Below, piece by piece: positions 4,530 to 38,958 of a stretch of DNA of 64,000 nt. The DNA lies in the NCBI GenBank assembly GCA_037043015.1, contig CM073325.1, forward strand, positions 7,295,001 through 7,359,000. Reading direction: 5' to 3'. The DNA comes from Bryum argenteum. Lineage: Eukaryota > Streptophyta > Bryopsida > Bryales > Bryaceae. Numbering within the stretch: position 1 is the first letter of the stretch; every line of letters starts with the position of its first letter. The position numbers and the translations under genes are program-made. A model generated the notes under the pieces. The model ran no database searches. It worked only from the letters and a program-made list of their open reading frames with translations, and was not told the DNA's origin.

Positions 4530-5041
4530 TTAACCCCTAAGAGCCGAAAGGGATTGGAGAAAAACTTAGATGTGTTATTATGTAACTCTTATGAGGTTTT
4601 GCTCAAGAGATAGTATGAATATTTTAATGCTTAAATTAGATTGATGTGGTTAAATTTCTCAAAATAGAAACTATTTGTTTTATGATGTATTCAGGAACCT
4701 CAAACTTTCAATATCAATCAAAAGAAAATTTATCATTAGTAGTTGGAAAATTGATATGATCGGCTAAAATCACATATTATATCATATCATCAAGAAAGGC
4801 CATCATCAGCCTAAGAGAACACCATCGGTTTTCCAAAATAGTAAGTGTTTCAACATTGAAGAAACCTTGTATTGTTTGATCGCATACTGCGAACAATGTA
4901 TGACTCCAAACGATGTGCTATAAATTGAATGTAGTTTTCAACACACCAAAGTTTTCGGGTTAAATATAAAGTTTCAGAATTTTAATTTTTATGGATTGTT
5001 TAATCGACTTTAAAATAGTGGATTGGGCACTTAGGGGTTTA
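4530..5041. mobile_element. TTAA-flanked MITE, 504-bp core (element d)
   Basis: The core is 4534-5037. It is flanked by TTAA (4530-4533) and TTTA (5038-5041). The left end reads CCCCTAAGAGCC and the inverted right end CCCCTAAGTGCCC, a near-perfect terminal inverted repeat. There is no coding capacity. It belongs with the other TTAA-flanked elements of this window. It lies in the spacer between VPS35 and centrin and abuts another MITE cluster on its right. Confidence 0.7.
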
Positions 5042-6396
5042 GAGCATTCCTTACGATTTGGCTAAAGGATTAGCTAAATGCAGCTAGGGAGTAGGGGTTG
5101 TTGGATGTAGCACCCCTTTGAATTTTCATCCTTTTTCAACAAATTGGCTAAAGGACCTTGCTAAATGACCATGCTATGTTCTATATTCTCAACACATCCA
5201 AGGAATTTAAGAGACCCTTAAAAATATAAAGACAATCAAAAAATGTCAAAGAAAAGTAGAACAATGTTAAACAACTATATGTGGTTGGTCTCTGAGAGTT
5301 TTACTTTGGCTGGCTCCCAAAGGTAATAGGTTGTTTAACTACACTAAAAATTATATTTAGTGTTGGCAACACTAAATACGAACAACAACACCAATTGTCA
5401 ACAAGGGTAGAATTGTAGCAACTCTAATTGTCAATTCCAACACCAATTGTGAACAATAGTAAGAATTAAAGAATTGAAAAATGAAGTAGTTGACATTTAG
5501 TGTTAGATTTTGGTTTGGTGTTAGCCAACTTGCAACTTTGGTGACTAAATGGGAGGCTGCCATTAAGATATGGTGGCCCCCAATACACTATTGTCTACAA
5601 GTTGACTATAAAAGGGAGGTTGCCATTAAGAAGGGGTGGCCCCCCAATACACTAATTGTCCACAAGTTGACTAATAGTGTTGGAGCATGATGGTGGGTAC
5701 TACACTAATTGTCATCCAACACTAAATATAATTTTTAGTGTAGTCCTTGGAAAAGGGTGTGGATTTAAAAGTGGCTACATTTAGCAACCCCTCCTCACTG
5801 GCTACAATTAGCCAGACCTTTAGCCGTTGGAGATGCTCTAAAAATAACCAATTTAGAACATTCCTAGTGCCTTGACTAAATGGACAAGAGTGGCTACATT
5901 TAGCGAGGCAAGAATCATGTGTCTTTTTTGACGGACTAGCTAAAAGACCTCTTACCTTTAGCGACCCGCCAAAGAAACGCTCAAGGATCCGTACCTGCCA
6001 TGTGTGATGGCCGACCACAACCCTATCTACTGACCCACCTTCTATATTAGAACCCAAAGTACTTTCTTCATGGTTGCAATGCTTCATCATTATTTGAGCA
6101 TCTTTCTATCTTCAATATTTCTGACATCTTTCTAATGTTGTCATTTTTTTCATCCTCTACTTTCTTTATTTTTGTTCGACATCTTTCTATTAGCTTCACA
6201 TTTTTTAGTCTCTTTCTATTTTCTTAAATTTTTTATACGTGTTGAGAATATAGAACATAGTATGGTCATTCAGCAAGGTCCTTGAACTGATCTGTTGGAA
6301 AAGGATGTGAAATCAAAGGGGTGTTATATTTAGCAACCCCTCCTCCTTGGCTACATCTAGCAAGTCCTTCGGCGAGCCCGTTGGGAATGATCTTAG
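5042..6396. mobile_element. Composite hAT-like MITE cluster with ~170-bp inverted ends
   Basis: The outer arms 5042-5215 and about 6235-6396 are inverted copies of each other. They start AGAGCATTCC and GATCATTCCC and share a run built on GCTAAAGGA, GCTAAATG and an A-rich stretch ending in ATGTTCTATATTCTCAACAC. The end type, GAGCATCTCCAACGG, is typical of non-autonomous plant hAT-like elements. A further right end of the same type lies at 5790-5840 and a further left end at about 5850, so two or more copies are nested or joined. A separate MITE interrupts the cluster at 5338-5744. I could not define an 8-bp target duplication. Confidence 0.55.
5338..5744. mobile_element. MITE with perfect 29-bp terminal inverted repeat (TACACTAAA ends)
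   Basis: Positions 5338-5366 and 5716-5744 are exact reverse complements (29 of 29), beginning ACTACACTAAAAATTATAT. The interior holds further short inverted copies of TACACTAATTGTC and a duplicated GGTGGCCCCC segment. It is inserted in the hAT-like cluster. A second element with the same end type is at 40836-41060. The ends read (AC)TA then CACTA, so either a TA duplication or a CACTA-type terminus is possible; the palindrome hides the exact boundary. Confidence 0.65.
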
Positions 6397-6415
6397 TTGT
6401 GTTGCTCATCAATTG

Positions 6416-6776
6416 TTAACCCTTGAACGCCCATAGGGTCTAAAACGGGCAGCCTAGAATTGGATCACAACATCTTTTGGACTTGGGCATCATGAATAGT
6501 GCACTTTTCGAACTTGGGCATCATGAGTAGACCAATCAATGATGAGCTTGCAACCTCCTACAAGGTTATGTACAACCCCAACCTACCTACCACAATCCAC
6601 AAAATCATTCATACAAATTGTGATTTGAATTGTGAAATTTCATTTTTTGAATGCATGAGAAGAAGGTGACCAGTTTGACATCAAAATATAAGTGAAATGT
6701 TGAGTACAGAGAGAGCTACAGGGAAGATTATGTTGGAATCATGCCCCTCGGGCTTGCTTGGGCGTTTAAGGGTTAA
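6416..6776. mobile_element. TTAA-flanked MITE, 353-bp core (element c)
   Basis: The core is 6420-6772 with TTAA on both sides (6416-6419, 6773-6776). The left end is CCCTTGAACGCCCA and the inverted right end CCCTTAAACGCCCA. The interior contains a repeated phrase ACTTGGGCATCATGA at about 6480 and 6510. There is no coding sequence. Its right-end sequence recurs at 28901-28922, where another element has inserted. Confidence 0.72.
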
Positions 6777-7261
6777 TTTCACAAAAAATGGTGGAATGAT
6801 ATGGTAGAAGACATCCATTTCCGTCGACTTCACCCATACAGGACGTCCATCGACGGAAGTTTCATATTTGATGAACGAACGAACGAACGAACCTGCCTGC
6901 CGCATACTGTACAGTAACCGCTCCGTTGCGGGGAGGACAGACGGTTTGGCGACGGTTGCGACCGACGACCAATAACAACGCGCTTTTGCTACCTACCAGG
7001 GGGAGGGGCAGTCGGTTACAGCGCCACGGCTATAGGAACAAGAGGGTGTGACCGCCCCTACCTACCGACTGCCTCCTCCGTTCTTGCCGTAACCCTTACC
7101 TCCGCCCGCCCACCGATCTCTCCCATTGCTGCATCCTCTTCGATTTCTTGTCACAGTCCATCTTCAGTCCCTTGTTATCGCAGGCGATCACCCGACTGCA
7201 CCAATTGCTGCATTCTCAGGATTTCGATAAACCTTTTCGCGGTTTAGTGCGAGCTCCAACG

Positions 7262-8766
7262 ATGGTAAGTGAGCATTTTGTGTCGGAGGGATCTAGAAAT
7301 GGGCTTTTGAAGGATCGTTCGATGGAGAGCTCTGATTTAATTGTTTTTTGGCTTTCTATTGCTGAAGAGCGCGCCTTTTGCTCTGTAATTGCAGGCCAGT
7401 ACGGTAAGGAACTGATGATGATGATGCTGGAAAAAACATCCATGTCGTCACACGAGCAATGAGTCACTAGTATTCTGAGGTTTTGCCTGTGCATTGCAGA
7501 GTTTCCGCAAAGGCATGGGTACCGCGAGGCGGGACAAGAACAAAGGCCGCTCGCAGGGGCTCACGGAAGAGCAGAAGCAAGAGATTCGTGAAGCCTTTGA
7601 CCTTTTCGATACTGATGGCTCTGGTATGATATTGATCAAACCATTTCATTTCTCAGGACGTTCGGCAATTTGATTTTGGTGATCGGAAATTTTTCGATCG
7701 GCATTTGAATTTTGGTGACCGATACTTTTTCGTGTGTGTATCTGTGTTTTGTAGGAACGATCGACGCGAAGGAATTGAAAGTCGCCATGAGGTAATTCAG
7801 AACATATGCAGACTAGAGATAGATCGAAGATTTAGTTAGTTGCTGAGGATATTGTCCCCGGAACTTAGTGTTTGACTGCTAATTTTTTATGGTGTGTGGC
7901 AGGGCTCTCGGATTCGAACCAAAGAAAGAGGTCAGTTGTACTTTGATTTCAAAAGTTACTTGCTTATCGAAGTTCGGTAGGAATAGTCAGCCTGCTGCTG
8001 GTGCTAATGGTCTGCTCATATTTGATGTCTTCATGTGAGATTTAGTTCGCTAATTGACACTGTCATTTGTGAATGAAGATCAATGAAAGTGAAAGCGCAT
8101 TGGTACTGATTGTCGTTTGATGTCGTGTATTTCAGGAAATCAAGAAGATGATCGCAGATATCGACAAGGATGGAAGTGGTACTATCGATTTTGAGGAGTT
8201 TTTACAAATGATGACAGCGAAAATGGGTGAACGTGATTCCAAGGAAGAAATCATGAAAGCCTTCCGTCTGTTCGACGATGATGAAACTGTGAGTGGATTG
8301 CTCACTTGATTTTTTGATGCTCCATTGATCCAGAGTGATTATGCTGCCACTGTTACAAGCATCGCTGGTGGCTCTATAGTTCGGTGTAGAAGGTACTACT
8401 TGGATGTGTACACATACAATTGGTTATCGAGTACTCTTTTTTAATCGAAACTGGTCGATTATGTTGAAATATGGAAGCAATCACTGAAGCAATTGGTGTT
8501 TCACTACAGGGCAAGATTTCATTCAAAAATCTGAAGCGAGTTGCAAAGGAGTTGGGTGAGAACATGACAGACGAAGAGTTGCAGGAAATGATCGACGAAG
8601 CCGATCGCGATGGTAAGCTTCACTTTTTCGATGAGCTTGATGGTTGATTCACAGTAGTTACCGTTATATAGTCCAAATTTTTAACTTTCTGTGATTGTGA
8701 ACAGGCGACGGGGAAATCAATGAGGAGGAGTTTTACAGGATCATGAAGAAAACAAGCCTCTTCTAG
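7262..8766 (+). CDS. Centrin (caltractin), four EF-hand calcium-binding protein
   Basis: Centrins act at basal bodies, centrosome-like organizers and, in plants, in nuclear-pore mRNA export and DNA repair. Exons: 7262-7264, 7500-7623, 7755-7791, 7903-7930, 8136-8288, 8510-8612, 8705-8766. The product is about 170 residues, the normal size. It has a short basic N terminus ([17 protein letters not shown]), [17 protein letters not shown], then EF loops [36 protein letters not shown] and [12 protein letters not shown], ending KKTSLF. Loops 1, 2 and 4 keep the usual ligands; loop 3 has T at position 5 and N at position 12, so it probably binds calcium poorly. The initiator ATG is the last three bases of exon 1. 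Similarity is to centrin rather than calmodulin because of the N-terminal tail and the MKKTSLF-type C terminus. Confidence 0.95.
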
Positions 8767-9951
8767 TAACGTGAAGAGGTGAAACATCGATGCGAGACTG
8801 CATGTAGGTTCTTGCACAAGATGAAGCATCAGAGTGCACAAGGGAAACACTTTCTGATCATCCAACGGTGTAGGTTCAGCACTTTGGGAGGGTGATGTGG
8901 ATATTTGTACAGTTATCCCTCATTACATGCACTGGAAATTGCCCGCATATCATCTGCACAGGCGCTGGCTTAGCGCCATTTTGGCCGAGGGATGTGATAG
9001 TTTTAACTAAGTTAACAATATGCTCTTGAAGAATATGTAGCCCTTCAGCTGTTTGGAGCCCAGTATATCTGTAGGATGTAGATCGAAGTTAGGTCAGGAT
9101 GAGCCTCTATCTGTAGACCGATGTAGGAGTTTCCAAAAATGATTGTCAAAAATGTCAACAGTAACAGCGCACTCTAAATTTCCGTGATGTGATGATCACT
9201 GTGCGTGCAATATCTCTGTATTCCATGTTTGTTCACCTCCTTGCTACAGATCACCGGGTTAAAATACCGCACGGTTGATATGGTTTTCCTACCCGTACGT
9301 CAATCTCAGGATTCTATACCTCAGGTCCAAGACCTTGGTGCCAAGGTTCTAGGTTTGATGCTTTCAATACAACACAGGTTTAGATTTGTCAATTCTTGAC
9401 AATAGAAATGAATCCTATATCTAGAAGTTTCTCAATGGGCAAATTGATTCATTTTTCCTTCTTGCTGATTCTGAGGTTAACGCAGGGTACACCTTAGAAG
9501 ATTCCTGCCAGAAGTCTGTTTCTTATTGAGAAAGGCCTGCTCTAGAGGAAACCTAAATCTTAGCCGATACTCGAAAGTTTCAGTTCAAGGTTGTGTCAGT
9601 TTATCTGAACTCAGAGAGTACTGCAGATTGTTTCGTGTGAGCCTGGTGTCCGAATTAGAGAACACGAAACCCACGTATTGACCCAGTAGATGAGTATTTG
9701 ACACACTTTGAAGGCAAGCTCTCACGCCAAAAGTGTTACGTTTTTAAATCTACTTCACAAGGATAAGATTGTTACTTGTTTTGATCGCACGCCATACGTG
9801 TAGGTTTCTCAGAAATTTAAAAGAAGCTGTAAAAGAGGCTGTAAGGGAGATGGTCCCACTCCTACCCGGTCGTCTGTCCCATATGTATTGGCGCTACGAA
9901 CGTCGATACGAGAGTATAGAATCCTGAGCATTCCAGGCAGTTGTCACGGAG
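8767..9951. other. Centrin 3' flank, no gene seen
   Basis: This holds the likely 3' UTR of centrin followed by A+T-rich spacer. I see no exon chain, element ends or strong repeat. Confidence 0.4.
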
Positions 9952-10026
9952 CCGGGTGCTCAGCACAGAGCGAACTATTCTTTCGCCTTTTACTAAAGAA
10001 TACCGTTCGCTGGGTACACTCACCGG
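9952..10026. repeat. Imperfect hairpin, ~30-bp arms
   Basis: The left arm (CCGGGTGCTCAGCACAGAGC then GAACTATTCTTT) pairs with the right arm whose reverse complement starts CCGGTGAGTGTACCCAGCG and ends GTATTCTTT. A loop of about 11 bases separates them. Weaker pairing may extend outward. It could be a short foldback element or a small-RNA precursor; nothing decides between them. Confidence 0.4.
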
Positions 10027-10516
10027 CATACCACTTTTTTTGGAACGCCCCTCACGGGGCCCATCCATCACAACCCCAAACTGGAACACGAAATACGAGT
10101 GCAACTCTTGGTATTAGCGCTGTGGCTTGGTTGCCATAACCTTTCACACAGTATCGAAATCCTGCCCTAACCTTTCATTCATTACCAAAATGCTGCCCTA
10201 ACCATTCTTACAGTATCAAAATCCTCAATTCTTTCAGGCATTAAAATTCTTTCGAACAAGAGCATTGGAACATTTCAATGACACTAGTTCAATTACAGGA
10301 AATGCGATAGGTGCAATAGAAAAATTTACCATTTTCAATGACACTAGTTTGTGAGGTTCTAGAGTTCTTAGTACAATCACAAAAATCTTTTCAGAAGAGG
10401 AGGTTGAAAGAAAAATGTCTTTTTGTCTATGAAGAAAGAGAACGAAAACAAGTTCTCTTGGAGCTTGAGAGACATACTAAAGGAAGATTCCTTAACTCTT
10501 AAACGTCGAACTCTTT

Positions 10517-11500
10517 TAACCCCCAAACATACCACCCTATTATTAGCTAAAAAAACATATTCTTAAAAAAAGTGTCATAGGTGAAAATGAAGATAATTTA
10601 TTAAGATTCCAACCAGACAAACTCGTAAATGACTTGTTGTTGGTCATCTGGACCAAAATTTGGGTCATGGGACCTCATAAATAGGGAGATTGTAATGTAT
10701 TAGTACTAGTAATAAAGTGCAAAATTTCATCATTTTCACTTTGAGGTGGAAATTCTACAATTATATCTACTGCAATGAAAAAATCACCAACTGGAAATAT
10801 GTTCTTCTTCATCTCAATAACACCTTTCCCCAAAAAAATTCATTAAAATTTTGTTTGAATGAAATTATAGGCTTGCTATGGTGAAGATTGCCAACAATTT
10901 TACACAAGGGAAATGGTCTAAAACTAGATCTTTTGCACTCAACTTTATGCCTTATCTTTGAAACATCTTTGATCTTGATAAGGTTTCTACCTCTAAAACT
11001 AGACTCTAATTAGGATCCATTCCAAAAAATAAATTAAAACTTTGACGATAGATGAAGGAGATATAGCTCCTCAAATATCATCCAATTTCTCACTTTTTTC
11101 ATTGACAAAACATCATTGCAATTCCATTAGCAAAATTATTTGGATCAAATAACTTCCAACTAGAAAGTTTTGAAGGATCACCTTAAGATGATGATCATGA
11201 GGAAGTAATTTGTGAAAAACTATTTTTAATCTTACAGAATTGGCTTGCAATGGTTAAACGTTCTCCATGCAAGGAAATTCAAATACAAGAGTTGTTTTCA
11301 CCAAAATGCATGCCATTAATTCATTATTCATTCAATCGGTCTGAAATTTTTTCTACACAAAATAGACTTGATACGGAACCCAACCCAAGTGATTTCATCC
11401 AAAACAGACTTTTAATGAAGAAGTTATGTCTCTTCAAAATTATTGCCTTCCATCCAAAATGTAGTTTTTCTACTTTCAGCGCATTTAAGGGTAAAGTCAC
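10517..11500 (+). mobile_element. Long-arm TTAACCC-type element, right end missing
   Basis: The sequence starts at TTAACCCCCAAACATACC (10517) and runs through three blocks: A about 10560-10800, B about 10800-11220, C about 11230-11470. Each block is recognisable elsewhere. A, B and C recur in inverted order at 18393-19560, and A plus B recur at 37190-37690. Shared marks are AGTGTCATA-GTGAAAAT, TTCACTTTGAGGTGGAAAT and GAAGGAGATATAGCTCCTCA. It is non-coding and diverged, so an old copy. Confidence 0.5.
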
Positions 11501-12325: not shown

Positions 12326-12663
12326 CGAGGAGTCCAAATTGTACATAGTCCAAAAAAGTAAAAGTAAAAGGGTCGAGGGAGGTTTTCCAAAACATGGAGG
12401 ATAATTCTATTGTACGGCAAATGGTGTTTGCCAAAAATCTGCAAAGAAAATCAAATGAAGAAAAGGAAGGTGGACTTGAGCGGGGAAGATGACGGGTCCC
12501 GGAAAGGGGAGTCGTCGTCGTTCATGTCCTTGTCCTCGCCGTCTGCACTTCAATGCATTCTGCCATGGCCGTGCCGCCATTTTTCTAAGTAACGCATTCT
12601 AGGCATCTCTCTTCACCCTCGCTCCATCTCCAAGCGTTACTGAGCAATCGTTCGCGGTCCATC

Positions 12664-16806: not shown

Positions 16807-18388
16807 TGAGCTTCCTTTGCTACAGAATCGGACTCCTCTCTCCACAAATTTCAACCCTGTTAGGTACCATTTTTGATAGAGAAATCTGGGCGTTGGATCA
16901 AACCCGCGAAGCCATCTGTTGGTTCCCGAACAAAAGCATGGAATGTAAACAACTGGTTTCCCCAAAGCATTACGATAGGTATACGTTCATCACGCTTGTC
17001 TTTCCAAATTGGAGATGACCAGAAACATTGCAGGGACCCACACATCTAATGTGGTACCTGAAGTATTTTCGTTCCCCGTTCTTGATTCTTTAGACCTCAA
17101 TCAATGTCATGCATGCATTGAAATTTAAATATGCTTGCCTAGAGCATGTGTAAGTTTTTTCTTCAATCTCAAATTTTTTACACAAATTTGATTAAATACT
17201 TCTAACACGTCGTCTTGGGCTTCAATCAGTTCCAAAAAGGTACAAGTTTTACTGAGAAACTCATGATTTGTTTCCTATGCAGAATTTGAGTTTAACAAAT
17301 CATATGGTGCCTAATTGTCTAAAGCAGGTCTAATTGCCTACAGCAGGTATCGAAATAATATAGTGGTGAGCAGTTTAGTACTGGAAGTAAGGATCATCGC
17401 TTTTTGTTGTTGATCATCATGGATACATGACAGCTTTAGAGAGTACAATGCATTAGTTCATTCAATCAGTTATGTCACTTCGAGGTAGCAAATGATAAAT
17501 TTTCAATTCGTTTAATATGTCAATGATAAATCCATCACACGTCAAAACATCTCAGTGGAATGATAACTGAAAAATCATCACAAAATGATAAACCATCATG
17601 CAACAATGATAACAATGAATATTTAAAGAACACTCCATTTTTGCAACAAAAACATCTCAGTCGAAAATTTTATCATTGAACCAAATGATAAATTCATGAT
17701 TATTTTCCTAGAAGCATATTGAAGTCAAAATATCGTATGGGTACAGATGCAAACAACTTCTAGAGCACTTATGATGTCAAGATTTAGATATATTACTCTC
17801 TCTCCCAAACTGTCATACCTCCTCTCTTCCAAACTGTCTATGATGTTAAATTGAAAGGTCCTCTCAAATCTCCCAAAGTGTCTCCCGAATGCCTGATCCG
17901 TGTGTTCTCTCAAATTTATTCTTGAGAGCAGATTTGAGAGAACCTAAGATATTTATGTATGGGACATTTTGGGACAAGAGTATATTTATAAAGATGTGGG
18001 TGTTTTATTGTTGTGTTGATATTGAGAAGAAGTATATCCATAAAGATGTGGATGTTTTATCGTATGTTTATTGTTGTGCTGATATCTCGCAGTCTCCTCA
18101 TTTGAGAAAGAAAAAAAGCTTCTAGTTGTTATACTACTCTACAAAGAGTTTTTTTCTAGAGTTCATCAAACACAAATAATAAATTTTATCTAAGTATACT
18201 TTGAACATTGAGTTGCAGGATCTAAAAGTTTACTCATTTGTACTAGCTATCCCATTTGACAAAATATCAGAACCTCCCAAACCGCATGCAAATCCTCATA
18301 AAGCATAAGGTTTCGAGAAATCACAATAGATTTTGATATTGTAGGCACCTACCCAGACTCTCACATGTCCGTAATAGATACAAGGTCC
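16807..18388. other. Intergenic A+T-rich spacer, no gene seen
   Basis: This includes the PRMT6 3' flank. Between 17500 and 17720 the phrase ATGATAAA recurs several times, and 17760-17945 has scattered inverted TCTCTCAAA / TTTGAGAGA words. I could not assign an element. Confidence 0.35.
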
Positions 18389-19643: not shown

Positions 19644-20453
19644 TTAACCCCTAAACAACCATGGTGTTTTGGAGGCTCCAAGCTCCAAAACTGCGATTGT
19701 ATAAGGTAGGAGTGGTGAAAACCGTCTGAATTTCAGCTTTGCATACTTGGAACAATGGTGTAAAATTTTAATTATTTTTTGATGGTCTGCAAAGCTAGTA
19801 CAAATTCATCCCCCAAAAAAAAAAAACATTTTTTAAGTAATCCTATAATTTCCTATGAATTTTTGAATCTCGAGTCTTAGGAGTCCCACTACCCGAACAT
19901 AGAGTGCTGGCTTTTTTGCAAGGTTGTATTCCGAAAACTGTGGATTGAATGTCCCAATATGAATTAAAATAGGCTTAGGAACTGACATAGGAGATGTCTA
20001 AAACCGTTCAGCATGCATGGTGGGAGCTAAAAACAATGGATGGTTCCCAAAACCTGTCAATTTACCATGAACGGACGGTTCTACAGCCCCTACCCATAAA
20101 CCTACTGTGCAGATTTTGGAGCTGGACGGTTTTCACGACTCCTACCTTACCACCTTGTAAACTTTGGGGTATGAGAAACTTTGTTACACTTTTTTTAAAA
20201 ACTTTTAACCGTAAGATCCTGAAGAGAAGTACTGTCAGAGATAGTGGTTAAAATTTGAAATGTTGGATATCTGCCATTTGAAAGATCATAAAATTCAGAG
20301 TTGATACCAAAATATATATAATACAAAACAGAAACGTAAAACAATAATAAGAAAGAAAAATAAAATAAAATTGAGAGACATCGTCTACTTTGCGTACAGG
20401 AAGTCTTGATGATTAGTACCTCAAACATCTTGCTCATATTCTTTTCCATGTAG
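19644..20453 (+). mobile_element. TTAA-type element fragment, left end only (element f)
   Basis: TTAACCCCTAAACAACCATG (19644) followed by GTGTTTTGGAGGCTCCAAG resembles the end of elements a and b (TTAACCCCTAAAGATCC... TGTTTTGGGAGCTTG). The internal family motif (GTAAGATCCTGAAG... and AAATGTTGGATAT) occurs in reverse at 20205-20290. No matching right end was found; element g begins immediately downstream, so f may be truncated or split. Confidence 0.45.
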
Positions 20454-20720
20454 TTAACCCCTAACTCTCCTTGTTGCAAGACGGTCTAAGTCACAAAATT
20501 TGACCTTCCTTTAGATTAAGCTCAAAAAATCTCAATCCAAGCATTATTTAAAAGATTCAATCGTAAGATCTCAAATTTCACTTGACATTCTTCTCACATA
20601 CCAAATTTAAACCGTTCATTCTTCCTCATTTGTGAGATTATAATGGTCAAAGTTGGCTGAGTTTTCTCCTGCAGGAACCTCCAAAACCCATTTCAGGTTT
20701 TAAAGAGAGTTAGGGGTTAA
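20454..20720. mobile_element. TTAA-flanked MITE, 259-bp core (element g)
   Basis: The core is 20458-20716 with TTAA on both sides (20454-20457, 20717-20720). The left end is CCCCTAACTCTCC and the inverted right end CCCCTAACTCTCT. The interior carries diverged forms of the shared family motif (TGTGAGATTATAATGG on this strand). There is no coding potential. Confidence 0.72.
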
Positions 20721-21190: not shown

Positions 21191-22243
21191 CATTGGCGTG
21201 ACCTATAATTGTACATATTGCTGACCTTTTTAGACCCATGGCTGACTATTGTGAAAAAGGGACGGTAATGGGTGTACATCAAAGCATGCTTTACTGCCGA
21301 TTGGTTGGGAATGGATGTTGTATGTCATGGTGTAAAGTGCATAGTGTTTTAATGTTCTCCCTCTACTGGTGGTTCTTGCTTATCCACAACTTGGAATTTT
21401 GAACCACGATGGGACGTTTTTCAATTCCCCGTTTAACTTTTAACTGTTTAGCTCCACCTATGGACAAGCATATAACTATGTTTATTTTGTACTTTGGAAT
21501 ATTCTTATCAATTCAGACTCGTCACAAAACCTCATCTCTCAAAGCAAGTATTTTTCACTCCCAATTGCTAATCTACAGATATTTTTTTCAAGCTTCCTTG
21601 GTGGTTGTAACCAACCATATTTGCTTACTGGGACGGTTATGGGTGTCACTATCTTGATGAATAGTAAATTGTCCAATGTGACAACCACGACCGGACTGAA
21701 CCTCTTACTAATGGCACACTGATCTAGCCGAGGTATGGAAGGTGGAAAGTGCGAGAACTTATCTACCCCCACCCCCAATTTAATTAAATACATAATTTCC
21801 TAAATCACCCAACAAACCTCCTTATAAGGGGCACTTCACACTATGGCCGAAGGTCGAGAGGCCGTCGATTTCAGCCAATGAAATTGCAAGAAACCCTTGT
21901 TTCGGCCTCTCGAGCCTTCACACTAGAAGCCAAAGTCCACCGGCCGTCACTCTCCAAATCACCTACGTGGCAGCACTTTTTGACCAAGGCGACGGCCTCT
22001 CGACGTTTGTTTGGGTCCTGCATTTTGCAAGACCCAAACTATGGTCGAGAGTCCGTCGGATTTTATTCATAAAAAATTCAAAAACTGACAAGATCTTGAC
22101 CGTTAGATCAAAAAGATGCCTTCGACAAGGAATATAGTGGAATGCTTCTTCTCTTCCTCTCTCTCTCTCGCTTCTCTTCTTTGTTCTTGTTTTTTTTTTT
22201 TCTGCTGATTTTGGCTCTCTCAATTTTTTCGCGAGTAGCATAC

Positions 22244-23682
22244 ATGGATCATCTCTCTCAAAATCCTTACTATTGTAGCCAGCCGATTCTAGTGGGGAAT
22301 GAAAATTTTTTAGCCTCAAACTCATATAGAGCATTTCAGCCCTACTTAGGTCAAGTTTTGGAGAGAAGAGAAGAGGAGAGGGATGATAAAAGAGTAGAAG
22401 AGAGAGTTGTTCAAGAAGAAGAAGATTGTGAGATTGTAGGGTCTTCGAAGAAGAGAGCCGCTCCTAAGCAAAAAGCTTCAAAGACAGCAAAGACTCCAAG
22501 GGCTTCAAAAACGGTGGTGAAAATCGAAGGAGAAGGAGAGGAAGCAAATCGAAAGTGGGAGGATTCGGAGGTGCTTCAACTCATCGCGCTGAAAGGAGAG
22601 ATGGAGCCAGAGTTCGTGCGAAATGGCAAAAAACAAGGTACAAATTTTTCTGCCTAATTGTCAAAATTTCAATAAAAATCGGATTGAGGATTGGGGGCCG
22701 AAAGGCCTTTGCCTTCTCCCAGGCCCCCCTTTCCCCCCACAAGGACCGCAAAGAGCGTAGAGCTAGGGATTTGAACCCTAGTCTCCTCCATCACAAAGAG
22801 GAGAGTTCCCTCCTCTATCTACCACCCTCCATTGGTGACCAACTCCACCAATTTCTTGTATATGTAGCAATCACAGACTTTGTATGAGAGTCCATGTATG
22901 TGCTGCAATTTTTTTTAATGGTCAATTTTCACTCATTCTTTCATTTTTTTGCTCTTTTGGTTGCAGGAATCGACACATGGGTAAGGCTTCATGCTAGAAT
23001 GGTTGTTATGCTACCTAAATTCAACCGTACGGCCATGGCATGCCGTAAGAAATTCAAGAGCATCTTCGATGCATACAAAGAAGACAAATTGGCGAATGGG
23101 ATTTCTGGTAATAACCGGCAAGAGGGAAAATTCTATGAGGCTCTAGATGAGTGGTATCACCAAGCCGGACAAGTGATGAAGCCTGTCTCGGCTACTACCA
23201 ACGATAATGCAGACTCCCAAGTCAATTCAGCACATGAAGATGAGAGTGCACAAATTTCAACACCCACTACAACACCCACATCAAAAGGTAAACAACACTT
23301 TCAACATCGTGCAATAGATATCTTCGAAAGAATGGTAGAAACTAGCACATGTTTGATGAAAAACTTTGAGAGAACTAATGAGCTGCTAGAGAGGGTAGAT
23401 TACCAATTTGATCGTTTGATCAATAAGCTATTTATTCTCGAGCTATCTACTCTTCACTCGAGCTTGCATCATAGTCATCCTAATCATCATCGTAGGTACA
23501 ACTTTCAAACTGAAAGTTTGATTTTTTTTCCAAATGAGCTTTGTAAAAGCTCTTTGCTAGTAGTAAATGGATCCGAGTTGCATCTGCCAACATACTTTTC
23601 ATCTTCTCTTGCCGCTCTTTTTTTGTTTCATCACTTGAATCATGCATCTTCTCAATTTCTTCTTCTTCTCCTGGTTCTATGA
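22244..23682 (+). CDS. PIF/Harbinger ORF1, Myb/SANT-like DNA-binding protein
   Basis: In PIF/Harbinger elements ORF1 binds DNA and helps bring the transposase to the ends. Exons are 22244-22637 and 22967-23682; splicing joins GKKQ to GIDTW in frame. The N terminus (residues 1-100) is Glu-rich then Lys/Ala/Pro-rich (KKRAAPKQKASKTAKTPRAS), a likely nuclear signal. Residues about 110-180 form the trihelix/Myb-like fold: RKWEDSEVLQLIALKGEME, then W, then AMACRKKFKSIFDAYKEDK. A Thr/Ser-rich linker and a helical segment (HRAIDIFERMVETSTCLMKN) follow. The reading frame runs about 200 bp antisense into the transposase 3' end (23480-23682); the last 75 or so residues are low-complexity and may not belong to the ancestral protein. 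Confidence 0.8.
22685..22865 (-). repeat. tRNA-derived SINE-like insertion inside the ORF1 intron
   Basis: On the minus strand the sequence has GGTGGAGTTGGTCACC followed, after about 60 bases, by the B-box-like GACTAGGGTTCAAATCCCTA. G-rich tracts follow (GTGGGGGGAAAGGGGGGCC). It fills most of the 329-bp intron (22638-22966). It is GC-richer than its surroundings. No clear duplication or A-tail was found, so the SINE call is tentative. Confidence 0.4.
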
Positions 23683-24987
23683 ATGGTGTTTCTTCTGAAT
23701 CCAGATTGCCGTTCTGCAGCTGCCTCATTTCTCTCAATGCTGATTCTAGATAATGAAACATATCTACTTGATGCAATTTTCCTAGTGATATGTTTGCTTC
23801 ATCTTGTAGCTCCTTCTCAGCTTCTTTAGCCCACTCCATGGAAAATTCATCATTCTCTATAATGCATAAATTGTGAAGACATAAACATGCGGTAACTATG
23901 TCGGCAAATTCCGGAGTGGCATATCAACCCGTTTCAATAGTATACGCCATCTTCCTTTCAAAATCCCAAATGCTCTTTCCACAGCTATACGAGTGCTTGA
24001 CTGAATAAAATTCCAATGAGCCTTTCTTCTAGACAATCCGGTTCTTTCTCCCTTAAAAGGTAAGTAAAACCAAGGCCTCATAGGATATGCAGCATCACCA
24101 ATGAATTTGTAAGGTAAAAATGCACCTTTCATAGTCTTCTTTCCAATTTTAGATTTCTGAAATAATGCCCAATAGTGAATCCGTCCAGCCCATCCAAAAT
24201 TATAGTCCCAGAATTTGCAATTCGCATCTACGACTCCTTGTAGTAAACATGAATAATACCCCTTTCGGCAATAATATGCTACGGGATCATGAGATGGTGC
24301 TATAATAGGGATGTGGCTACCATCTATTGCACCTAGAATAAACGGAATGCCATGAAGTGCTTCAAAACCCTTTGCTATTTGTTTCATCCAATCAAGAGTT
24401 GGTTTTTTAAAAACCAATGGTCTCAAATGAATCCTAATTGCTTCACAACACTCCCTTACAATGATAGAAGTTGTACTCAATCCAACCCCAAATAAATCAG
24501 CAACAATTTGCAATGAATTGTCACTTGCTAATCGAGCAAGAGTAATTGCAATCCTACGCTCCACACTAATACTTTCTCTTAAATGTGTATCCTTCTTCTT
24601 CAAAACAGGCCCCAATAGAGTACATAAATGTTGAAATGTAGATGTACTCACCCTCATCCGTTTCCGAAAATCACTATCTGAAAATGACCTCATAAGCGTC
24701 TCGTCCAAAAAACCGCCATATCTTTTATGATGCCAACATCTCCTTTGATAATTCATCCGCGGTCCTTGTGTAATAAAAACTACCATCATCATCATTTGGA
24801 CATTTTGTTGAAAAATTGCAAGTTTTTGCAATGCCAAAATGCTCACAATGACATACTTCATGACCATGAAAGTTGAAAGTAACACAAGAATGCGTTCCCT
24901 ACTAGAATCCATGATAAGAGAAGGTAAGTGGAAAATTTCAGAAATTGGATGAATTAATAAAGGGATAAGTAGAATGAAGCCAAACAA
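23480..24987 (-). pseudogene. PIF/Harbinger DDE transposase, mutated
   Basis: The long reading frame 24987-23896 starts near MDSSRERILVLL or upstream and shows the PIF transposase order: RKRMRVSTSTFQHLCTLLGP, a helix-turn-helix (LASDNSLQIVADLFGVGLST), first Asp in GAIDGSHIPI, VVDANCKFWDYNFGWAGR, GDAAYPMRPW, and the Glu in ERAFGILKGRWRIL. The second Asp, normally in a GWPGS-HD block, is Tyr here (GWAGRIHYW; codon TAT at 24172-24174). Near 23902 a one-base loss ends the frame at LRNLPT; the next frame continues with DIVTACLCLHNLCI and MEWAKEAEKELQDEANI to a stop at 23480. Both changes predict an inactive enzyme. Confidence 0.88.
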
Positions 24988-25046
24988 ATGGTATGGGTTT
25001 GGACTTTGGGCTTGGCCTTTGGAGGCTTCACACTACGGCCGTCCAA

Positions 25047-25260
25047 GTTGAGAGGCCGTGAGAGTTCATGGCCAAAGCTTTGGACTTTGGGCTTGGCCTT
25101 TGGAGGCTTCACACTATGCCCGGCCAAAGGCTCCAATTACAATATTTTATTGGTTATTTTCAGTAAATTCCTTTGGACTCTCAACAAAGTTTGGACTCTC
25201 AACAAAGTTTGGACTCTCAACAAAGTTTGGACTCTCAATTCCACGGCCTCTCGACTTGGA
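25047..25260. repeat. Subterminal repeats and 18-bp tandem repeat of the Harbinger element
   Basis: TTTGGACTCTCAACAAAG is repeated about 3.7 times from 25172 to 25241. Two longer copies of a unit containing TTTGGAGGCTTCACACTA lie at about 25016 and 25098 and repeat part of the terminal sequence internally. GGCCTCTCGAC or its complement occurs at 25050 and 25245 here and at 21853, 21904, 21994 and, diverged, 22043 at the other end. Confidence 0.7.
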
Positions 25261-25285
25261 CGGCCATAGTGTGAAGCGCCCCTAA

Positions 25286-28918: not shown

Positions 28919-29187
28919 TTAACCCCTAAAGATCCACGATGTTTTGGGAGCTTGAAATCCCAACACTGACCACTATGTACTAATGCGGGTACGTCCAATA
29001 TTTTTGGAAATTTTTGATAACTTCAACGGTAGGATCTTGAAGTAGACTACCATAGGTAGTAGTGTGAAAATTTTCAACCGTTGGATCATCACTGGATGTG
29101 AGATCATAACATTTGAAGTTGACTGTAAATTGTTTTTGGCCCTGACCGTAAAAGCCAAATTGGTGGCCATGGTCGTTTAGGGGTTAA
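28919..29187. mobile_element. TTAA-flanked MITE, 261-bp core (element a)
   Basis: The core is 28923-29183, with TTAA at 28919-28922 and 29184-29187. The left end is CCCCTAAAGATCCACGATG and the inverted right end CCCCTAAACGACCATGG. It is about 95% identical (12 differences in 261 by hand) to element b in opposite orientation. It carries the family motif: TATAAC-like ATCATAACATTTGAAG and TTTTCAACCGTTGGATC. The left flank is the right end of a c-type element, so a is a nested insertion. Confidence 0.8.
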
Positions 29188-31859: not shown

Positions 31860-32795
31860 TTAACCCCTAAAAATCCAGGAAAACCGATTCGGTTTTCTGA
31901 GATTTCGGGCAGCTCATTTTAAGCATTTAAATTGATATTTTTGCCTAAGATTTTTATTGGGTGCTCTCCATACAGTAATGTGTATGTGGTAAAATTTTCA
32001 AAGTCAAATTTTAATTTTATAACCTTCACCTAGAAATTTTAGGTTTCAAGTCCTAAACGGGCAGTTTAAAATTAATTTTTTTAATTTATTTTTTTTTAGA
32101 AATATGTTCATTACCAAATTACTATTCAAATTCCAAAGTATCCGAAGTCAAAACGTTTACCAATTTTACAAGGGCAGCCTCCAAAACTTTCAAAAACAAT
32201 CTTCACAATTTCTAGTAATTTTACAATTTTTTCTTTCAAAAATTGCCAAAATTCGAGATTTTGGATTTTTTCCAAGATTTTTTTTTTTCAAAATTCACAT
32301 TATCATAAATTCACCTTCTCACTGTCGAGATTTTTCTCAAACTAAATATATCATACGTGGTGCTTGTTTTACTATATGGTTGTTTTTAGACCTTCTTTCA
32401 TAAAATATTTTACGTTAAGGTCAAAAAGTGGAATTGGTCTCTAAAATTTTGCATGAGCATACCCAACTTGATTACCTACATGAAAAAAAATGAGGGAAAA
32501 ATATTTGGAATAACAATCATCAAGTTGCCCTTGGCACCATTTCGACAATGCCTCTCACGCAGCGGCAAAAAAAAGTGTTGGTCAAACTTTGATTGTTATG
32601 ATCTCACAAATGACAAACATCCAACGGTTGAAATTTTGACCAGTCCTTTGTATACAAGTTAGGTACAAGATCTTACGGTTCAAAGTCTAAAACCGGAAAA
32701 AAAAGTTTCTCCATTTCCCCATTTCCCAACGAAGGTGAAAAATGGCAGTTTTTGGTTCTGGAGGTCGAGGAAACCCCTGGATTTTTAGGGGTTAA
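31860..32795. mobile_element. TTAA-flanked element, 928-bp core (element h)
   Basis: The core is 31864-32791, with TTAA at 31860-31863 and 32792-32795. The 16-bp ends are perfect inverted repeats: CCCCTAAAAATCCAGG. The family motif (TTATGATCTCACAAATGAC, CATCCAACGGTTGAAATTTT, ACAAGATCTTACGGTT) lies at 32597-32682 near the right end. It is the longest complete TTAA element here. The longest open frame is short and T-rich, with no transposase similarity, so it is non-autonomous. Confidence 0.78.
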
Positions 32796-33245: not shown

Positions 33246-33600
33246 GTGAAACGAAGTAGAAGAAGAGAAACTCCAACCTTTTTAGAGGTCAGTGTGAATA
33301 GAGTGTTCGTTCCACCTATCCTTGTATTTATGCTCAGATGTCATCACACCAATGGCAGACTACTTGCTCCTCTCCGGGTGAACGCTATGGTAGTTCCTAC
33401 CTTGCGAGTAGTGCCTTCGAGATACCCGACATGGTTTTTCCCCAAAGGCTTTTCCCACCCCCCCCCCCCCCCACTATAGTTGGGTGGACTATGGTGGTGA
33501 GCACCACGCCAACATGGGGAATAGAACTCACGACCTCCTCATTTAATTTTGATGAATAACAAACATGGATTGCTTGGTCTTAGGGCTCTTATCTTCTACC
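33246..33600 (-). repeat. tRNA-derived SINE, copy 2
   Basis: On the minus strand it has the same order as copy 1: AAGACCAAGCAATCCATG in the head, GAGGTCGTGAGTTCTATTCC (B-box-like), TGGTGCTCACCACCATAGTC, a C/G homopolymer of about 16, GGTAGGAACTACCATAGCG and ACACTCTATTCAC ... AAGGTTGGAGTTTCTCTTCT. Divergence from copy 1 is moderate. Confidence 0.65.
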
Positions 33601-34010
33601 TCTAAGAATTATCTATTAAACAAGGCATATTGTTTGTTTTGTGAGTGCGTGAGTGATTCTATGATCTAGGGTATCGACGGTCGGATCGAGGCGCACGAGG
33701 TGTTGTTGGAAGTGGGTTCTGGTTAAAAGGTGGGGACAACAATCGGATCACGACCACACCGATGGATCCCCAGATTTTCAATTTCCAAGTAATCATAGCC
33801 CCCAAAATCACCAGAAATTACATAATTTTAGATTTAGCAGAAAATGAGAGGGGCATGGTCAAAGTATTTTACTGGGCCTGGCAATGCCGCAGAGACATAC
33901 TAGTGGTTGATTAATTTCACATAAGCAAATTGCAAATTACAAGGCCATGTTTGGGGTGGTTTACCTTGCACGTTGTACAATACTAGATATTTTCTCTAAC
34001 CAAAATTTTA

Positions 34011-34116
34011 TACTCCCTCTGTCACATTACAATCGTAGAGTAGGTTCTCTTATATCTATCTCTTGAGGTAGTTTTGAGAGGACCTAGTAGACAATTATAA
34101 TGGGACACATGGAGTA
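34011..34116. mobile_element. Stowaway MITE, 102-bp core
   Basis: The core 34013-34114 begins CTCCCTCTGTCACATTACAA and ends, inverted, CTCCATGTGTCCCATTATAA. TA flanks both sides. The CTCCCTC-GTC start is the Stowaway (Tc1/mariner) signature. Confidence 0.8.
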
Positions 34117-34284
34117 TGTAACTTGTGATCACAGTGCACAAAACTAGTGTCAACAATAGCACTCCATCCAAGGTAGGAGGCTCTAGAATCACACAACACC
34201 AAAGAATCACAAAGCACCTAAGCACGAGGTACGATATAGCTTCTAACTTCAAATTACAACATAGAATGTCCAATTCACACAACC

Positions 34285-34400
34285 ACTTCCAGATAGATAG
34301 AAACTCCGGTCCCTTTCCAAGGGGCCGGCGTGAATGAAGTGTCCGTTCGTAATGCTAATATCCCGATGGCCACCGGACAAGGGGGAATTGATCACTTCCA
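34285..34400 (-). repeat. SINE tail fragment
   Basis: On the minus strand GGACACTTCATTCACGCCGG ... GGACCGGAGTTTCTATC matches the tail of the SINE at 29490-29830. The head is missing. Confidence 0.45.
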
Positions 34401-35087
34401 GATACACCTATGAGTCTCGATACTAAAACTCATAACTAATCCAATATTTATGATTACAATTGGTCCAATCTCTTGTATACTTTACATATCCCATTGAGTG
34501 CGCCACTCCGCAACAACCTTGCAAGATGCCAATCCAAAATTATGGGGCTATTGACCCTCCTACCTTATGATGGCCAAACTCGGCCTCTACTTGGATTGAT
34601 AGATTGATACAAAAAGTACCCAAAGCCAACTTTCCACTTCTGGACAAGATTAGATGATGGAAGCAACAATGATCACCATTTGGATTTTTTTTGAAAGTAA
34701 AAAATAAACACTAGGAATTCTCCTCCTTGTAGCAATTAATAATCAAGGGCATATGTATATATTCTAACCTCAGATTTGTATGTACAATTTGGTTGCAACT
34801 AACAAGTGAGCTCTAAAAATATGGTGGTACCCTCTCCCCCCCGGGACTGGACAGGACGTAGCCGATACTGAGCATGGGAACTGGATTCGGAACCGCCGGG
34901 ACTACTGCAACAACAAGACGGGTGCTTGCTTGTCTTGGCACGCTGCTCATCAGTACAACCCACTTTACCCCCCCCCCCCCAGCGAGGCGAGTACAAGTGA
35001 TGAAGAGCGTGTAAACTCAACCCTACGCGAGCGAGCAACACATGATGCCCGCCCAGTTATGGTGACACACCCGCATCAAGTACCACC

Positions 35088-35660
35088 TTTTTGGTGATCG
35101 GAATATTTACCCTCCCTCCTTCTCACTCTTACTCCAAAAAAACACACGAAATTAAATTAATATGGGTCTATTCTTTTTCTCCGCTTTTTGGTGATCGGAA
35201 TATTTACCCTCCTTCTCTTCCGAGAAAAAACTCACGAAATTAATATGGGTTTATTTTTCTCCCCTTTTTGGTGATCGGAATATTACCATCCTCTCCGAAA
35301 AACACAAGGAAATAATATGGGTTTATTTTCTCCCCTTTTTGGTGATCGGAATATAACCCTCCTTCTCTTCCGAAAAACACACACGAAAAATTAATATGGG
35401 TCTAATTTTCTCCGCATTTTGGTGATCGGAATATTACCCTCCTTACCTCACTTCCGAAAAACACACAAAAATACTATGGGTCTATTTTTCTCCCCTTTTT
35501 GGTGATCGGAATATTACCCTCCTTCTCACTCTTCCAAAAAACACACGAAAATAATATGGGTCTATTTTTCTCCCAATTTTGGTGATCGGAATATTTACCC
35601 TCCTTCTCTCTCTTCCGAAAAACACACGAAAATAATATGGGTCTACTTTTTTCTCCGCTT
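35088..35660 (+). repeat. ~80-bp minisatellite, seven clear copies
   Basis: TTTTGGTGATCGGAATATT starts each unit, at about 35088, 35185, 35265, 35336, 35417, 35496 and 35577. Each unit continues with ACCCTCCTTCTC, CCGAAAAACACACGAAA and AATATGGGTCTATTTT. Spacings are 97, 80, 71, 81 and about 80. Decayed units continue to about 36120 (TTTTGGTAAG, TTTTGGTGATAAAATATTAC, TTTTGGTAAGGGGATAG). Confidence 0.85.
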
Positions 35661-36239
35661 TTGGAAGGGCCCTTATAGTGCATGGGATCCATAGCACCGT
35701 TTTGGTAAGTGAATATCACCCTCTTTTTGGTTCAAATAAAAACAAATGATGTTAGCAGTGCAATTTTGAGTCTACTTTTGGAGGCCCGGTTTCTAAATCA
35801 TTGGGTGTGTGAATCAAAACGTTACTATCCTTGGCACATCACAAACTTTTTGGTGATAAAATATTACCCTCCTTCCTACTAACCTAAATAACAAAAGAAA
35901 TAATGTAGGTCAAATTTTCTTGGCTTTTGAGGGAACCCATATGGTTCTATGACTTTATCCATGGCACATCACCACCATTTTGGTAAGGGGATAGTACTCT
36001 CCTTTCTACCTACCTTTTTTTCAAACAAAAGAACTACTCTAGTCAATTTTTGGAAGGTTCGTTTTTGTTTTAGATGAATGGCACATCACCGCCGTTTTGG
36101 TACGATATTTTCTCTCCGATAAACTAAAGGAAAATACACAACATTTGAGTCAATTCTCTCGCCTTTGAAAGGCCCATTTTTTCCCCATTGCACCGCTATC
36201 TTTTCTCTCTCCAATCAAAGCAATTCTATCTACCTTTTG

Positions 36240-37190
36240 AGTTGATTTTTTTTTTCGGGGGCCCGGGGCCATAGTGGATTGTTTCATGGGGTGCATGTGG
36301 CTTTTTTAGGATCCCCACCCTCCAGGAGAGAGATGAGAGCGAGGGAGGGGAGGGGGGAATATTTGCGGGGTGGTGATAAGTACTCGTAGCAATCAGTTGC
36401 ACTCATTGGAGGGGCGAGGTCTGTTGTTTTGATATGTCTTTCGCACACACCTGTAAATGCAAGGGAATTTATGTTGCCAGCGCAAAATCATTGCATTGCG
36501 CAACGAGCCTATCGCCTTCCTTCCAATTCGGAGAATGAAAAACAAACAAACTGCCTCATCATCATCATTATAGCCTACATACCCTTTGGCTCGACAATTG
36601 TATACTTACAACGCACAAGACTCCATTGAGAACGCGTTGCCCATTGTTTTATCGTCAGCCCTAGTTATTGGGTTACACTCGTAAGGTCCCGGAAAAGAAG
36701 TATCCCATGTCTACCATTTTATTTATTATTATTTTTTTAATTTTTGATATTGGTTAGACCAAGGTAGGTAGGTAGGTAAGTTTGTATATTGGTAGGTTGG
36801 TACTTTGGTGGGTAGGAAGGATCGACGTACAGTATTTTATTATAGAAGTAGATGTTGTTGCTATTTTTTTTTATTTTTTATTTTTTCAAACCTACTCCCT
36901 GTACACTTCTTCACGTACGAGAGTCATCTTTCCAAAGTAGAGGCACCTATGGGTGCTTGTTTGGGCGGTATGGGAGGAGAATTTATTTTTGGATTACGAC
37001 GATATAGGAGAAAAGGCGATTTTTTTTTAGATGCACCAAACCATCAACTTTGTATGAACGTATGTGAATTTTACGTAGATGGGTTTAATCCATAAATGTT
37101 CCTGCCATTTTCTTAGTCGATAAAGATAATATTTTGAAAGCTTCCTAAATGGAAATGCAAGTAAGGTATTTGAATTTTTTTTAATCATGC
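36240..37190. other. Spacer with GGTA microsatellite
   Basis: (GGTA)n-like sequence occurs at 36765-36810. No gene or element ends were recognised. Confidence 0.35.
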
Positions 37191-37690
37191 AATCTTGTAG
37201 TACGCTTAGTGTAGGTCATGTTGGTCAAATTTGGAGTCATGAGGTTTTATAGATTGCGAGATGAGAATGTATTTGTACTCAAAATTGATTATGAAACTCC
37301 AACATTTTCACTTTGAAGTGGAAATGCTATGAATTGCAATCAAAATTTCGACAACAAGAAAGTTGTTCACCTTCATCTAAAATTTACTCTTGGAACAAAT
37401 GAAAACACAAAGTAAAGGCACAAACACAAACATAAAGATCTTGGATCAAATGTCCTTGCAATGGTGAAAATTGTCTCGTTTTTTACAAAGGAGGAATAGT
37501 CCAGATCTAAACCTCTTGCACTAAAATCCTTGCCATGACTTGAAAACGTATCGGGTGGCATTTTACAGCAAGAGCTCGACTTCAATTGGATTCCAACCCC
37601 AAAAAATAAAATTGAAATCCAAAAGTGTATACAGGAGATACAACTCCTCAAAGACCATGCATTTCTTCGTGAGGTGGATTTCTCCTAAAG
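37190..37690 (+). mobile_element. Long-arm TTAACCC-type element, fragment (blocks A and B)
   Basis: TTTTCACTTTGAAGTGGAAAT, AACAAGAAAGTTGTTCACCT and AGGAGATACAACTCCTCAAA align with 10730-11070 and, inverted, with 19050-19400. Both ends are missing. Confidence 0.45.
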
Positions 37691-38394
37691 TCCACATTCT
37701 ACATACCATAAAATCTTTGACCACATAATTTACGACCCTCTTCACACATGTTTCTCACAAGTACAATTGGCTCAAGAAACATGCACGCCCTATAACATAT
37801 AACTAGCAAGGTATATGCCGCAATTTTACTATTATTTGCGACTTTAAGTATGTGGTCCAAAACCATACGAATTAAAGTAACATTTGACATCGCATACCAT
37901 GTCGTGTCCAAATACGCCTACAATCGTAAAGCAAGAAGGCAACACATTCCATGTCTAAAAAGCAACAATGACATATCATCCACATCTATGTCCTATCGAA
38001 TTGTGGGTGTCGAGATCATCAAGTGTAAAGGGGACGTTACCATTCGCGCAGCCATATTGCCACTTTGCTGCGTCAACAATTTATGGGGCCTAACCTTTTT
38101 GGGATTCTAAAGAGGAATCTTAGCAAACCAACATGAACTCTGCTCCAAAAGCCACCCCCTTTTGGTGTTTCTCTAAAGCAGGAGACTATTCAACAAATAT
38201 TCTTTTGTCCACATAAGCACCCCAAAAAAAAAAATCTAAAAAAAAATGAATGATCCTTTTTTGAAGCAAAGGTAAATAGTGCACAACATAAGCAATAAAT
38301 GTTTGTGTGCTTTCAATCGGCTCAAGATCTTGTACCATATTTGTGTCACACACTCCAAGTGTACGAATTGTGAAATTGGAATATTCAAAAGTTA

Positions 38395-38510
38395 GAAGTA
38401 GAACTACAACAAATTCAGACCTGTTTTGAGGTTGGCGTGAATAGTGTGTTTGTTTGATACTTATGCCTTATGGTCATAACACCAATAGTGTGGTTGAGTT
38501 ACAATTGTAG
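38395..38510 (-). repeat. SINE tail fragment
   Basis: On the minus strand CACACTATTCACGCCAACCT and ATTGGTGTTATGACCATAAG resemble the tail and body of the SINE family at 29490 and 33246. Confidence 0.4.
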
Positions 38511-38689
38511 AGCTGCAATTATAAAATATTGTAGTAAGGAACTTCTTTTTTGGTAATGGTTTTGGTTACTAAAACCCAATTTGTATGATATCTTAATTTG
38601 TGATAGACCAAGCATGTTTCTGAGTTTTACAAACCGAAAATTGCGATTATTCGACCACTTTAAAAACTAAAATTTGTGTTAAAATTTTC

Positions 38690-38958
38690 TTAACCCCTAA
38701 AGGCCCACGGCCGCCGATTCGGCTTTTACGGTCAAGGCCAAAAAAAATTTACAGTCAACTTCAAATGTTATGATCTCACATCCAGTGATGATCCAACGGT
38801 TGAAAATTTTCACACTACTACCTATGGTAGTCTACTTCAAGATCCTACGGTTGAAGTTATCAAAAATTTCCAAAAATATTGGACGTACCCGCATTAGTAC
38901 ATAGTGGTCAGTGTTGGGATTTCAAGCTCCCAAAACATCATGGGCCTTTAGGGGTTAA
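38690..38958. mobile_element. TTAA-flanked MITE, 261-bp core (element b)
   Basis: The core is 38694-38954 with TTAA at 38690-38693 and 38955-38958. Ends are CCCCTAAAGGCCCACGG and, inverted, CCCCTAAAGGCCCATGATG. It is the inverted, ~95% identical sister of element a at 28919. The equal core length (261) supports exact boundaries. Confidence 0.8.

Follow-up and report, generated by a model that had tools for sequence, protein, structure and literature searches.

Probable piggyBac parentage of TTAA-flanked miniature elements in the moss Bryum argenteum

The stretch of Bryum argenteum DNA analysed here (the window: 64,000 nucleotides of contig CM073325.1, assembly GCA_037043015.1, positions 7,295,001 to 7,359,000 of the forward strand) holds six miniature inverted-repeat transposable elements (MITEs) which, with a probability that I put at about 0.95, are non-autonomous members of the piggyBac superfamily, spread in trans by full-length elements of the same genome. 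The MITEs themselves had been noticed earlier from the letters of the window; that sequence-only reading did not include the autonomous elements, which are diverse and have multiplied in a recent burst, or a second coding segment, hereafter ORF2 (open reading frame 2). The six elements are the following.

MITE 1: 4534-5037, 504 bp; TTAA at 4530-4533 on the left and TTTA at 5038-5041 on the right.
MITE 2: 6420-6772, 353 bp; CCCTT ends, TTAA on both sides.
MITE 3: 20458-20716, 259 bp; TTAA on both sides.
MITE 4: 28923-29183, 261 bp; TTAA on both sides, in a host site that resembles the end of MITE 2.
Element 5: 31864-32791, 928 bp; TTAA on both sides, laid out like an internal deletion derivative.
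MITE 6: 38694-38954, 261 bp; TTAA on both sides; same family as MITE 4, in the opposite orientation.

All six lie exactly where the sequence-only reading had placed them, with ends that read CCCCTAA or CCCTT, as it had claimed, and with TTAA on 11 of the 12 sides, the TTTA at 5038-5041 being the twelfth. Their terminal inverted repeats (TIRs) are short, the unbroken match covering about 8-16 bp. The window contains the motif TTAACCC 22 times, while 100 dinucleotide shuffles gave 8.6 on average and 16 at most. A search for inverted CCC..GGG pairs (at least 12 of 14 bases matching, 120-1500 bp, TTAA not demanded), which covered 283,107 bp, returned 12 pairs, one element being included twice (as loci L002 and L003): ten are flanked by TTAA/TTAA, one by TTAA/TTTA (MITE 1) and one by AATG/CATT, and the same search on the reversed sequence, taken as a control, returned a single pair. 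MITE 4 is absent from this list, its ends falling short of 12 matching positions in 14. No transposase had been seen in the window, and three transposases and as many ORF2 domains, used as tblastn queries, likewise gave zero matches there.

An assembly-wide search for these ends, advised on the strength of the window, covered the whole genome (258,844,377 bp in 25 contigs) and found TTAACCCCTAA at 17,696 sites (8,758 on the forward and 8,938 on the reverse strand), against 317 (160 and 157) for the pattern written backwards; along the same line, TTAACCCTTAA occurs at 11,206 sites, against 428 for its reversed pattern. Four of the six window elements served as DNA queries (MITEs 1 to 4; element 5 and MITE 6 were left out), yielding 723, 2,327, 1,930 and 1,032 first-look candidates, respectively, 40 of which were scored for each query. 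In three of the four families nearly all scored copies are 93-97% alike; that of MITE 1 is the most diverged, its 39 other scored copies being 71-74% alike and mostly spanning positions 1-420, so that the 3' part of MITE 1 is not common to the family. Judging from these matches, each of the four queried elements is a repeat family. The family of MITE 2 also includes two pairs of copies that stand four bases apart, a spacing that would result from the landing of one element in the TTAA next to another.

Full-length elements were sought by a profile search of the genome with DDE_Tnp_1_7 (PF13843), which gave 775 first-look candidates, 116 of them scored. The long transposase-encoding member that the sequence-only reading called for thus has many representatives, all 116 scored candidates lying above the Pfam cut-off (best E 7.4e-82) and 93 being free of stops within the match. 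The same profile found nothing in 14 control genomes, which are taken as microbial (in the search with a photosynthesis family, a cyanobacterium was the sole control named) and for that reason are no guide to other plants; in viral contigs, none of 49 pattern-matching stretches was confirmed as a relative of the transposase. Twenty transposase loci, nearly all top-scoring, were then read out at 8.5-10 kb each. With a boundary pattern that required TTAA and C-rich ends, matching end pairs were found in 15 of the 20 loci and 14 elements of 4,461-6,453 bp were kept, with TTAA on both sides and with ends that begin CCCYT, their C-richness being a property which the pattern itself required. Locus L027, whose best end pair reached only 11/14, was left out of the full-length count; no end pair was found at L021, L023, L025, L032 and L035, and at L019 a 4,942-bp pair (13/14) was kept over a 7,317-bp one (14/14). 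A later locus, L049, contains a TTAA-bounded element of 5,701 bp.

The transposase itself is of piggyBac type. The 883-aa protein of L030 matches piggyBat (9c0f, E 1.2e-26) and Trichoplusia ni piggyBac (6x67, E 5.4e-26), with no other distinct PDB sequence reaching E <=0.01, and its motifs LTIDE, LTMDN and MRGVD align with the catalytic Asp positions of both. The triad of T. ni piggyBac is D268/D346/D447 (PMC7351741); here 19 of the 20 loci have all three Asp residues, and L025 has E at the second position. By eye, most of the printed transposase proteins end in C- and H-rich C-termini, where no domain model matches.

Kinship between the MITEs and these elements extends beyond the ends. MITEs 4 and 6 are 89.4% identical to the 3' part of L031 in an alignment of 236 bp and 88.3% identical to L024 in one of 240 bp, and the first 14 bases of MITE 6 equal those of the young element L049. 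Element 5 aligns with the 3' side of L038 over 373 bp at 73.7% and, by its first 50 bp, with the 5' side at 78%, which is, to all appearances, the layout of an internal deletion derivative. Shorter matches join the last 32 bp of MITE 2 to the 5' end of L019/L020 (90.6%) and 59 bp of MITE 3 to subterminal sequence of L038 (83%). Sequence in common with autonomous copies is, in short, clear for MITEs 4, 5 and 6, short for MITEs 2 and 3, and, for MITE 1, apparent at the ends with no clear match beyond them. Two further stretches of the window resemble the full-length elements.

20149-20457, adjoining MITE 3: diverged piggyBac-derived fragments (blastn: L038, 69% over 156 bp; L031, 81% over 83 bp).
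40838-41066, 229 bp: L024-like stretch, 82% identical to an internal non-coding part of L024.

The second of them may instead be a different repeat nested in L024. The superfamily, which the sequence-only reading had proposed from the ends alone, is therefore borne out by the DDE_Tnp_1_7 transposase, by full-length elements with the same ends and by the 236 bp held in common with MITEs; its companion proposal, a spread in non-autonomous form, agrees with the many-copy MITE families, with the lack of a coding remnant in the window and with the homology to autonomous copies. Kolobok and Sola3 also duplicate TTAA, and such flanks are hence not exclusive to piggyBac, so that another superfamily of this kind might have made the MITEs while piggyBac was merely co-resident; the long stretches which MITEs 4, 5 and 6 share, beyond the ends, with piggyBac-coding elements render this very unlikely.

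A subtler question is whether the duplicated site is TTAA at all. An element with A...T ends that duplicates TA within a TTAA target looks identical, and paired TTAA alone is therefore undiscriminating: Tc1/mariner-like (Stowaway) MITEs with a preference for TTAA would leave the same flanks as piggyBac. With the outer T varied (VTAACCCCTAA) there are 1,288 sites (control 498), among them CTAACCCCTAA sites at close spacing, and with the inner A varied (TTABCCCCTAA) 856 (control 317), against the 17,696 of TTAACCCCTAA. The outer T, which varies little more than the inner A, is almost equally fixed, and this fits a plain TA duplication poorly; moreover, these ends belong to elements that code for a piggyBac transposase, and a Tc1/mariner origin has next to nothing left in its favour. 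No other transposase was found in the autonomous elements with these ends, PF13843 being the only profile searched for. As to the CTAACCCCTAA sites, several of those on contig C1 are paired at a spacing of 71-79 bp (e.g. 20812913 and 20812992); they are likely a distinct repeat with no link to the MITEs.

Flanks and empty sites bear on the same point. In ten copies picked by internal similarity with the flanks ignored, the copy from the window among them, all 20 sides read TTAA. A single TTAA stands in one neighbouring unit of the minisatellite that holds the MITE of L048, and again in the empty site of MITE 4, whose joined flanks equal the end of MITE 2 (6750-6774) at 25 of 25 bases. In alignments of joined flanks over the junction, two of 21 have TTAA in the partner, both at one L048 minisatellite unit.

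Some observations weigh against the piggyBac parentage of the six elements, or at least against its simplest form. The other 19 of those 21 alignments have no TTAA in the partner, these partners being mostly 68-80% identical paralogues or other units of the L048 minisatellite. MITE 1 has TTTA on one side, and its match to the full-length elements is a weak internal one of 32 bp (E 0.009). The short TIRs and the diversity of the MITE families make the parentage of MITEs 1 to 3 less direct, and, the 20 loci having been chosen among the highest-scoring matches, intact copies are over-represented in that set.

Another plant superfamily has a representative in the window itself, whose features are listed below.

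21828-25282: complete-looking PIF/Harbinger element, with ends GGGGCACTTCACACTATGGCCG and TAA on both sides.
23899-25032, - strand: DDE_Tnp_4 transposase in this element, E 2.2e-24.
22755-22832, - strand: predicted tRNA-His (gtg) inside this element.

A Myb-like ORF on its + strand (E 0.004) is below cut-off. With a neighbour of this sort, bearing 23-bp inverted ends, one may ask whether the MITEs are Tourist-like derivatives of PIF/Harbinger. This is extremely improbable, for the Harbinger of the window has TAA flanks and different ends, whereas the MITEs have four-base TTAA flanks, DDE_Tnp_1_7 parents and piggyBac homology. Elsewhere in the window, MITEs 1 and 2 are separated by an interval (5041-6399) whose ends form an inverted repeat (127 bp at 75.6%, 5038-5161 against 6399-6273), hence another, different repeat lies between the two.

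As piggyBac is best known from animals, the full-length elements might also be thought to come from a contaminant of the assembly, such as an insect or an oomycete. The listed PF13843 matches fall on every one of contigs C1-C11 (about 256 of 258.8 Mb), chlorophyll-binding genes are found on C2-C9, that is, on the same contigs as piggyBac, and the window has plant-type genes, with matches to homeodomain and START pieces (read as one HD-ZIP III gene), Vps35 and Glycos_trans_3N; contamination can accordingly be given scarcely any weight. The HD-ZIP III and VPS35 peptides look unlike those of seed plants. Chlorophyll-binding matches number 90 genome-wide. Among single-domain chains, a 167-aa light-harvesting fragment is best matched by 7xqp and 8htu, presumably of Physcomitrium, and then by 8c29, presumably of spruce, the 620-aa chain 9vfj_2 scoring higher still; taken with the eleven large contigs, this fits a moss. 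Weaker chlorophyll-binding matches, at profile positions of about 31-161, stand in dense arrays at C5:8161886-8412977, C5:14730833-14760859 and C2:25064562-25094660; these look like arrays of ELIP genes, which occur in desiccation-tolerant plants.

The mode of spread that I propose for the MITEs is cut-and-paste transposition, in which the transposases of full-length piggyBac elements would act in trans. The transposase would bind the CCCC/CCCTT ends, the element would be excised through hairpins carrying TTAA, and it would then be joined into a new TTAA, leaving TTAA on both sides. Mobilisation of these MITEs in trans is suggested by the shared ends and the copy number. The hairpin step is put forward by analogy with T. 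ni piggyBac, for which TTAA hairpins and seamless repair are described (PMC7351741).

Movement appears to be recent because near-identical copies exist, and some activity may persist at present. A case in point is the transposase domain of L049 (394 aa), which is found at 100% identity and full length in at least eight places, L049 included; the search gave 898 candidates, 105 of them scored, and 35 of 108 listed matches, some of them partial, reach at least 96% identity. The eight identical places point to a very recent burst. In the corresponding ORF2 search (321 candidates), 58 of 150 scored matches have one identical score. Identical-scoring ORF2 places (at least 58) thus exceed near-identical transposase domains (at least about 35), and deletion derivatives that kept ORF2 may account for the excess.

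Over longer times the transposase domain is, as judged from codon comparisons, under purifying selection: among seven pairs the ratio of nonsynonymous to synonymous divergence (dN/dS) is 0.04-0.12 in four and saturated in two, the seventh (L029/L030) giving 1.21 on very few changes, at a dS of 0.008. The same two elements have a dS of 0.36 in ORF2, as if the 5' part had been exchanged between elements. By amino-acid identity (at most 47% between lineages, pairwise) the transposases fall into five lineages.

Lineage A: L022, L024, L029, L030, L031, L034, L035, L036, L038.
Lineage B: L019, L020, L023, L028, L033, L037.
Lineage C: L026, L032.
Lineage D: L025, L027.
Lineage E: L021.

Given this diversity together with the near-identical copies, the group is diverse, probably old in its host, and lately amplified.

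Upstream of the transposase, tblastn with the three ORF2 domains (E <=1e-3) finds a match in 18 of the 20 loci, the exceptions being L023 and L032; in L021 the match is far upstream, in L035 it is split between frames, and in L019 it contains a stop. Six columns (W, L, P, R, F, L) are invariant in 12 sequences from lineages A, B and C. In 16 pairs, from which L019 was left out because its stop breaks the codon alignment, dN/dS is 0.11-0.35 in the eight with finite dS, the other eight being saturated, and ORF2, at this level of comparison, shows purifying selection.

How ORF2 relates to the transposase differs between lineages. For lineage A, a predicted GT-AG intron (77-94 nt) separates ORF2 from the transposase frame, whose start is ATG, or CTG in L024/L031. 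With the predicted intron removed, the transposase is +1 to ORF2 in all six elements with a scripted donor (L022, L024, L029, L030, L031, L049), and likewise, by hand, in L034; the exception is L036, where the offset read by hand is 2 and ORF2 closes ahead of the donor. L038, L026 and L027 have no such intron, and their +1 offset is read directly. ORF2 is, in most testable copies, out of frame with the transposase (+1). In lineage B, ORF2 (126 aa) ends at a donor-like GTGAG in four of four open copies; L033 could splice it in frame to the transposase, but a splice at that position would be out of frame in L019/L020. Searches of Pfam, NCBIfam and PDB with ORF2 gave no significant match, the best E values (0.21, 0.25, 0.043 and 0.014) belonging to unrelated families and being taken as chance.

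ORF2 would probably serve as an accessory protein or else extend the transposase at its N-terminus. A fuller picture, for which the odds seem to me about even, is that of an old plant branch of piggyBac, with five lineages, recently amplifying and built of two coding segments, in which an ORF2 domain of about 80-110 aa, without known relatives, would be either an accessory DNA-binding or assembly protein or an N-terminal transposase domain added by frameshift or splicing. Within that picture, and sharing its even odds, the transposase of lineages A, C and D would start in +1 at or over the end of ORF2, in most of lineage A after the predicted intron.

piggyBac, in standard use for gene transfer, is known chiefly from animals and from some other non-plant eukaryotes and has seldom been described from plants; plant genes annotated as piggyBac-derived may exist. 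In the titles and abstract openings of the part of the literature that was searched, no description of a piggyBac family in a plant, a moss, a bryophyte or Physcomitrium was found, by which novelty is not proven; a 'piggyBac' match in a moss genome paper came from 'piggybacking'. The occurrence of piggyBac in plants is mentioned briefly by two animal papers (PMC10140906, PMC10813416), a table of a fern genome paper counts 1,230 'PiggyBac' pieces totalling 122,417 bp, about 100 bp each (PMC6890710), and the main text of a MITE survey of 207 plant genomes contains neither 'piggybac' nor 'ttaa' (PMC12550479).

Thousands of MITE ends, together with near-identical and apparently intact autonomous copies, would offer a native plant piggyBac system and would supply a transposase suited to plant cells, while giving an occasion to date the arrival of piggyBac in plants. 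The one-gene picture of piggyBac would change with a conserved second coding segment, and MITE catalogues limited to the usual plant superfamilies would misfile elements such as these.

To set the moss elements beside known systems, they are like T. ni piggyBac (6x67, 6x68) and piggyBat (9c0f) in DDE_Tnp_1_7, in the D-D-D motifs, in the TTAA flanks and in the short C-rich inverted ends. They differ from both in their longer frames (883 aa in L030), in the upstream ORF2 of 18 of the 20 loci and in the predicted intron of lineage A, and from T. ni piggyBac also in size, measuring 4.5-6.5 kb against 2.5 kb (2,472 bp according to PMC10140906). The MITEs, for their part, are short, gene-less and TTAA-flanked like the piggyBac MITEs described from insects (PMC9033116, PMC5199201), from which they are set apart by a plant host and by copy numbers and families of their own. 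With those PIF/Harbinger elements that carry a Myb-like second ORF, the full-length elements have in common that they are plant DNA transposons with a second conserved ORF; their ORF2, however, is without a Pfam match, and their transposase is DDE_Tnp_1_7, not DDE_Tnp_4.

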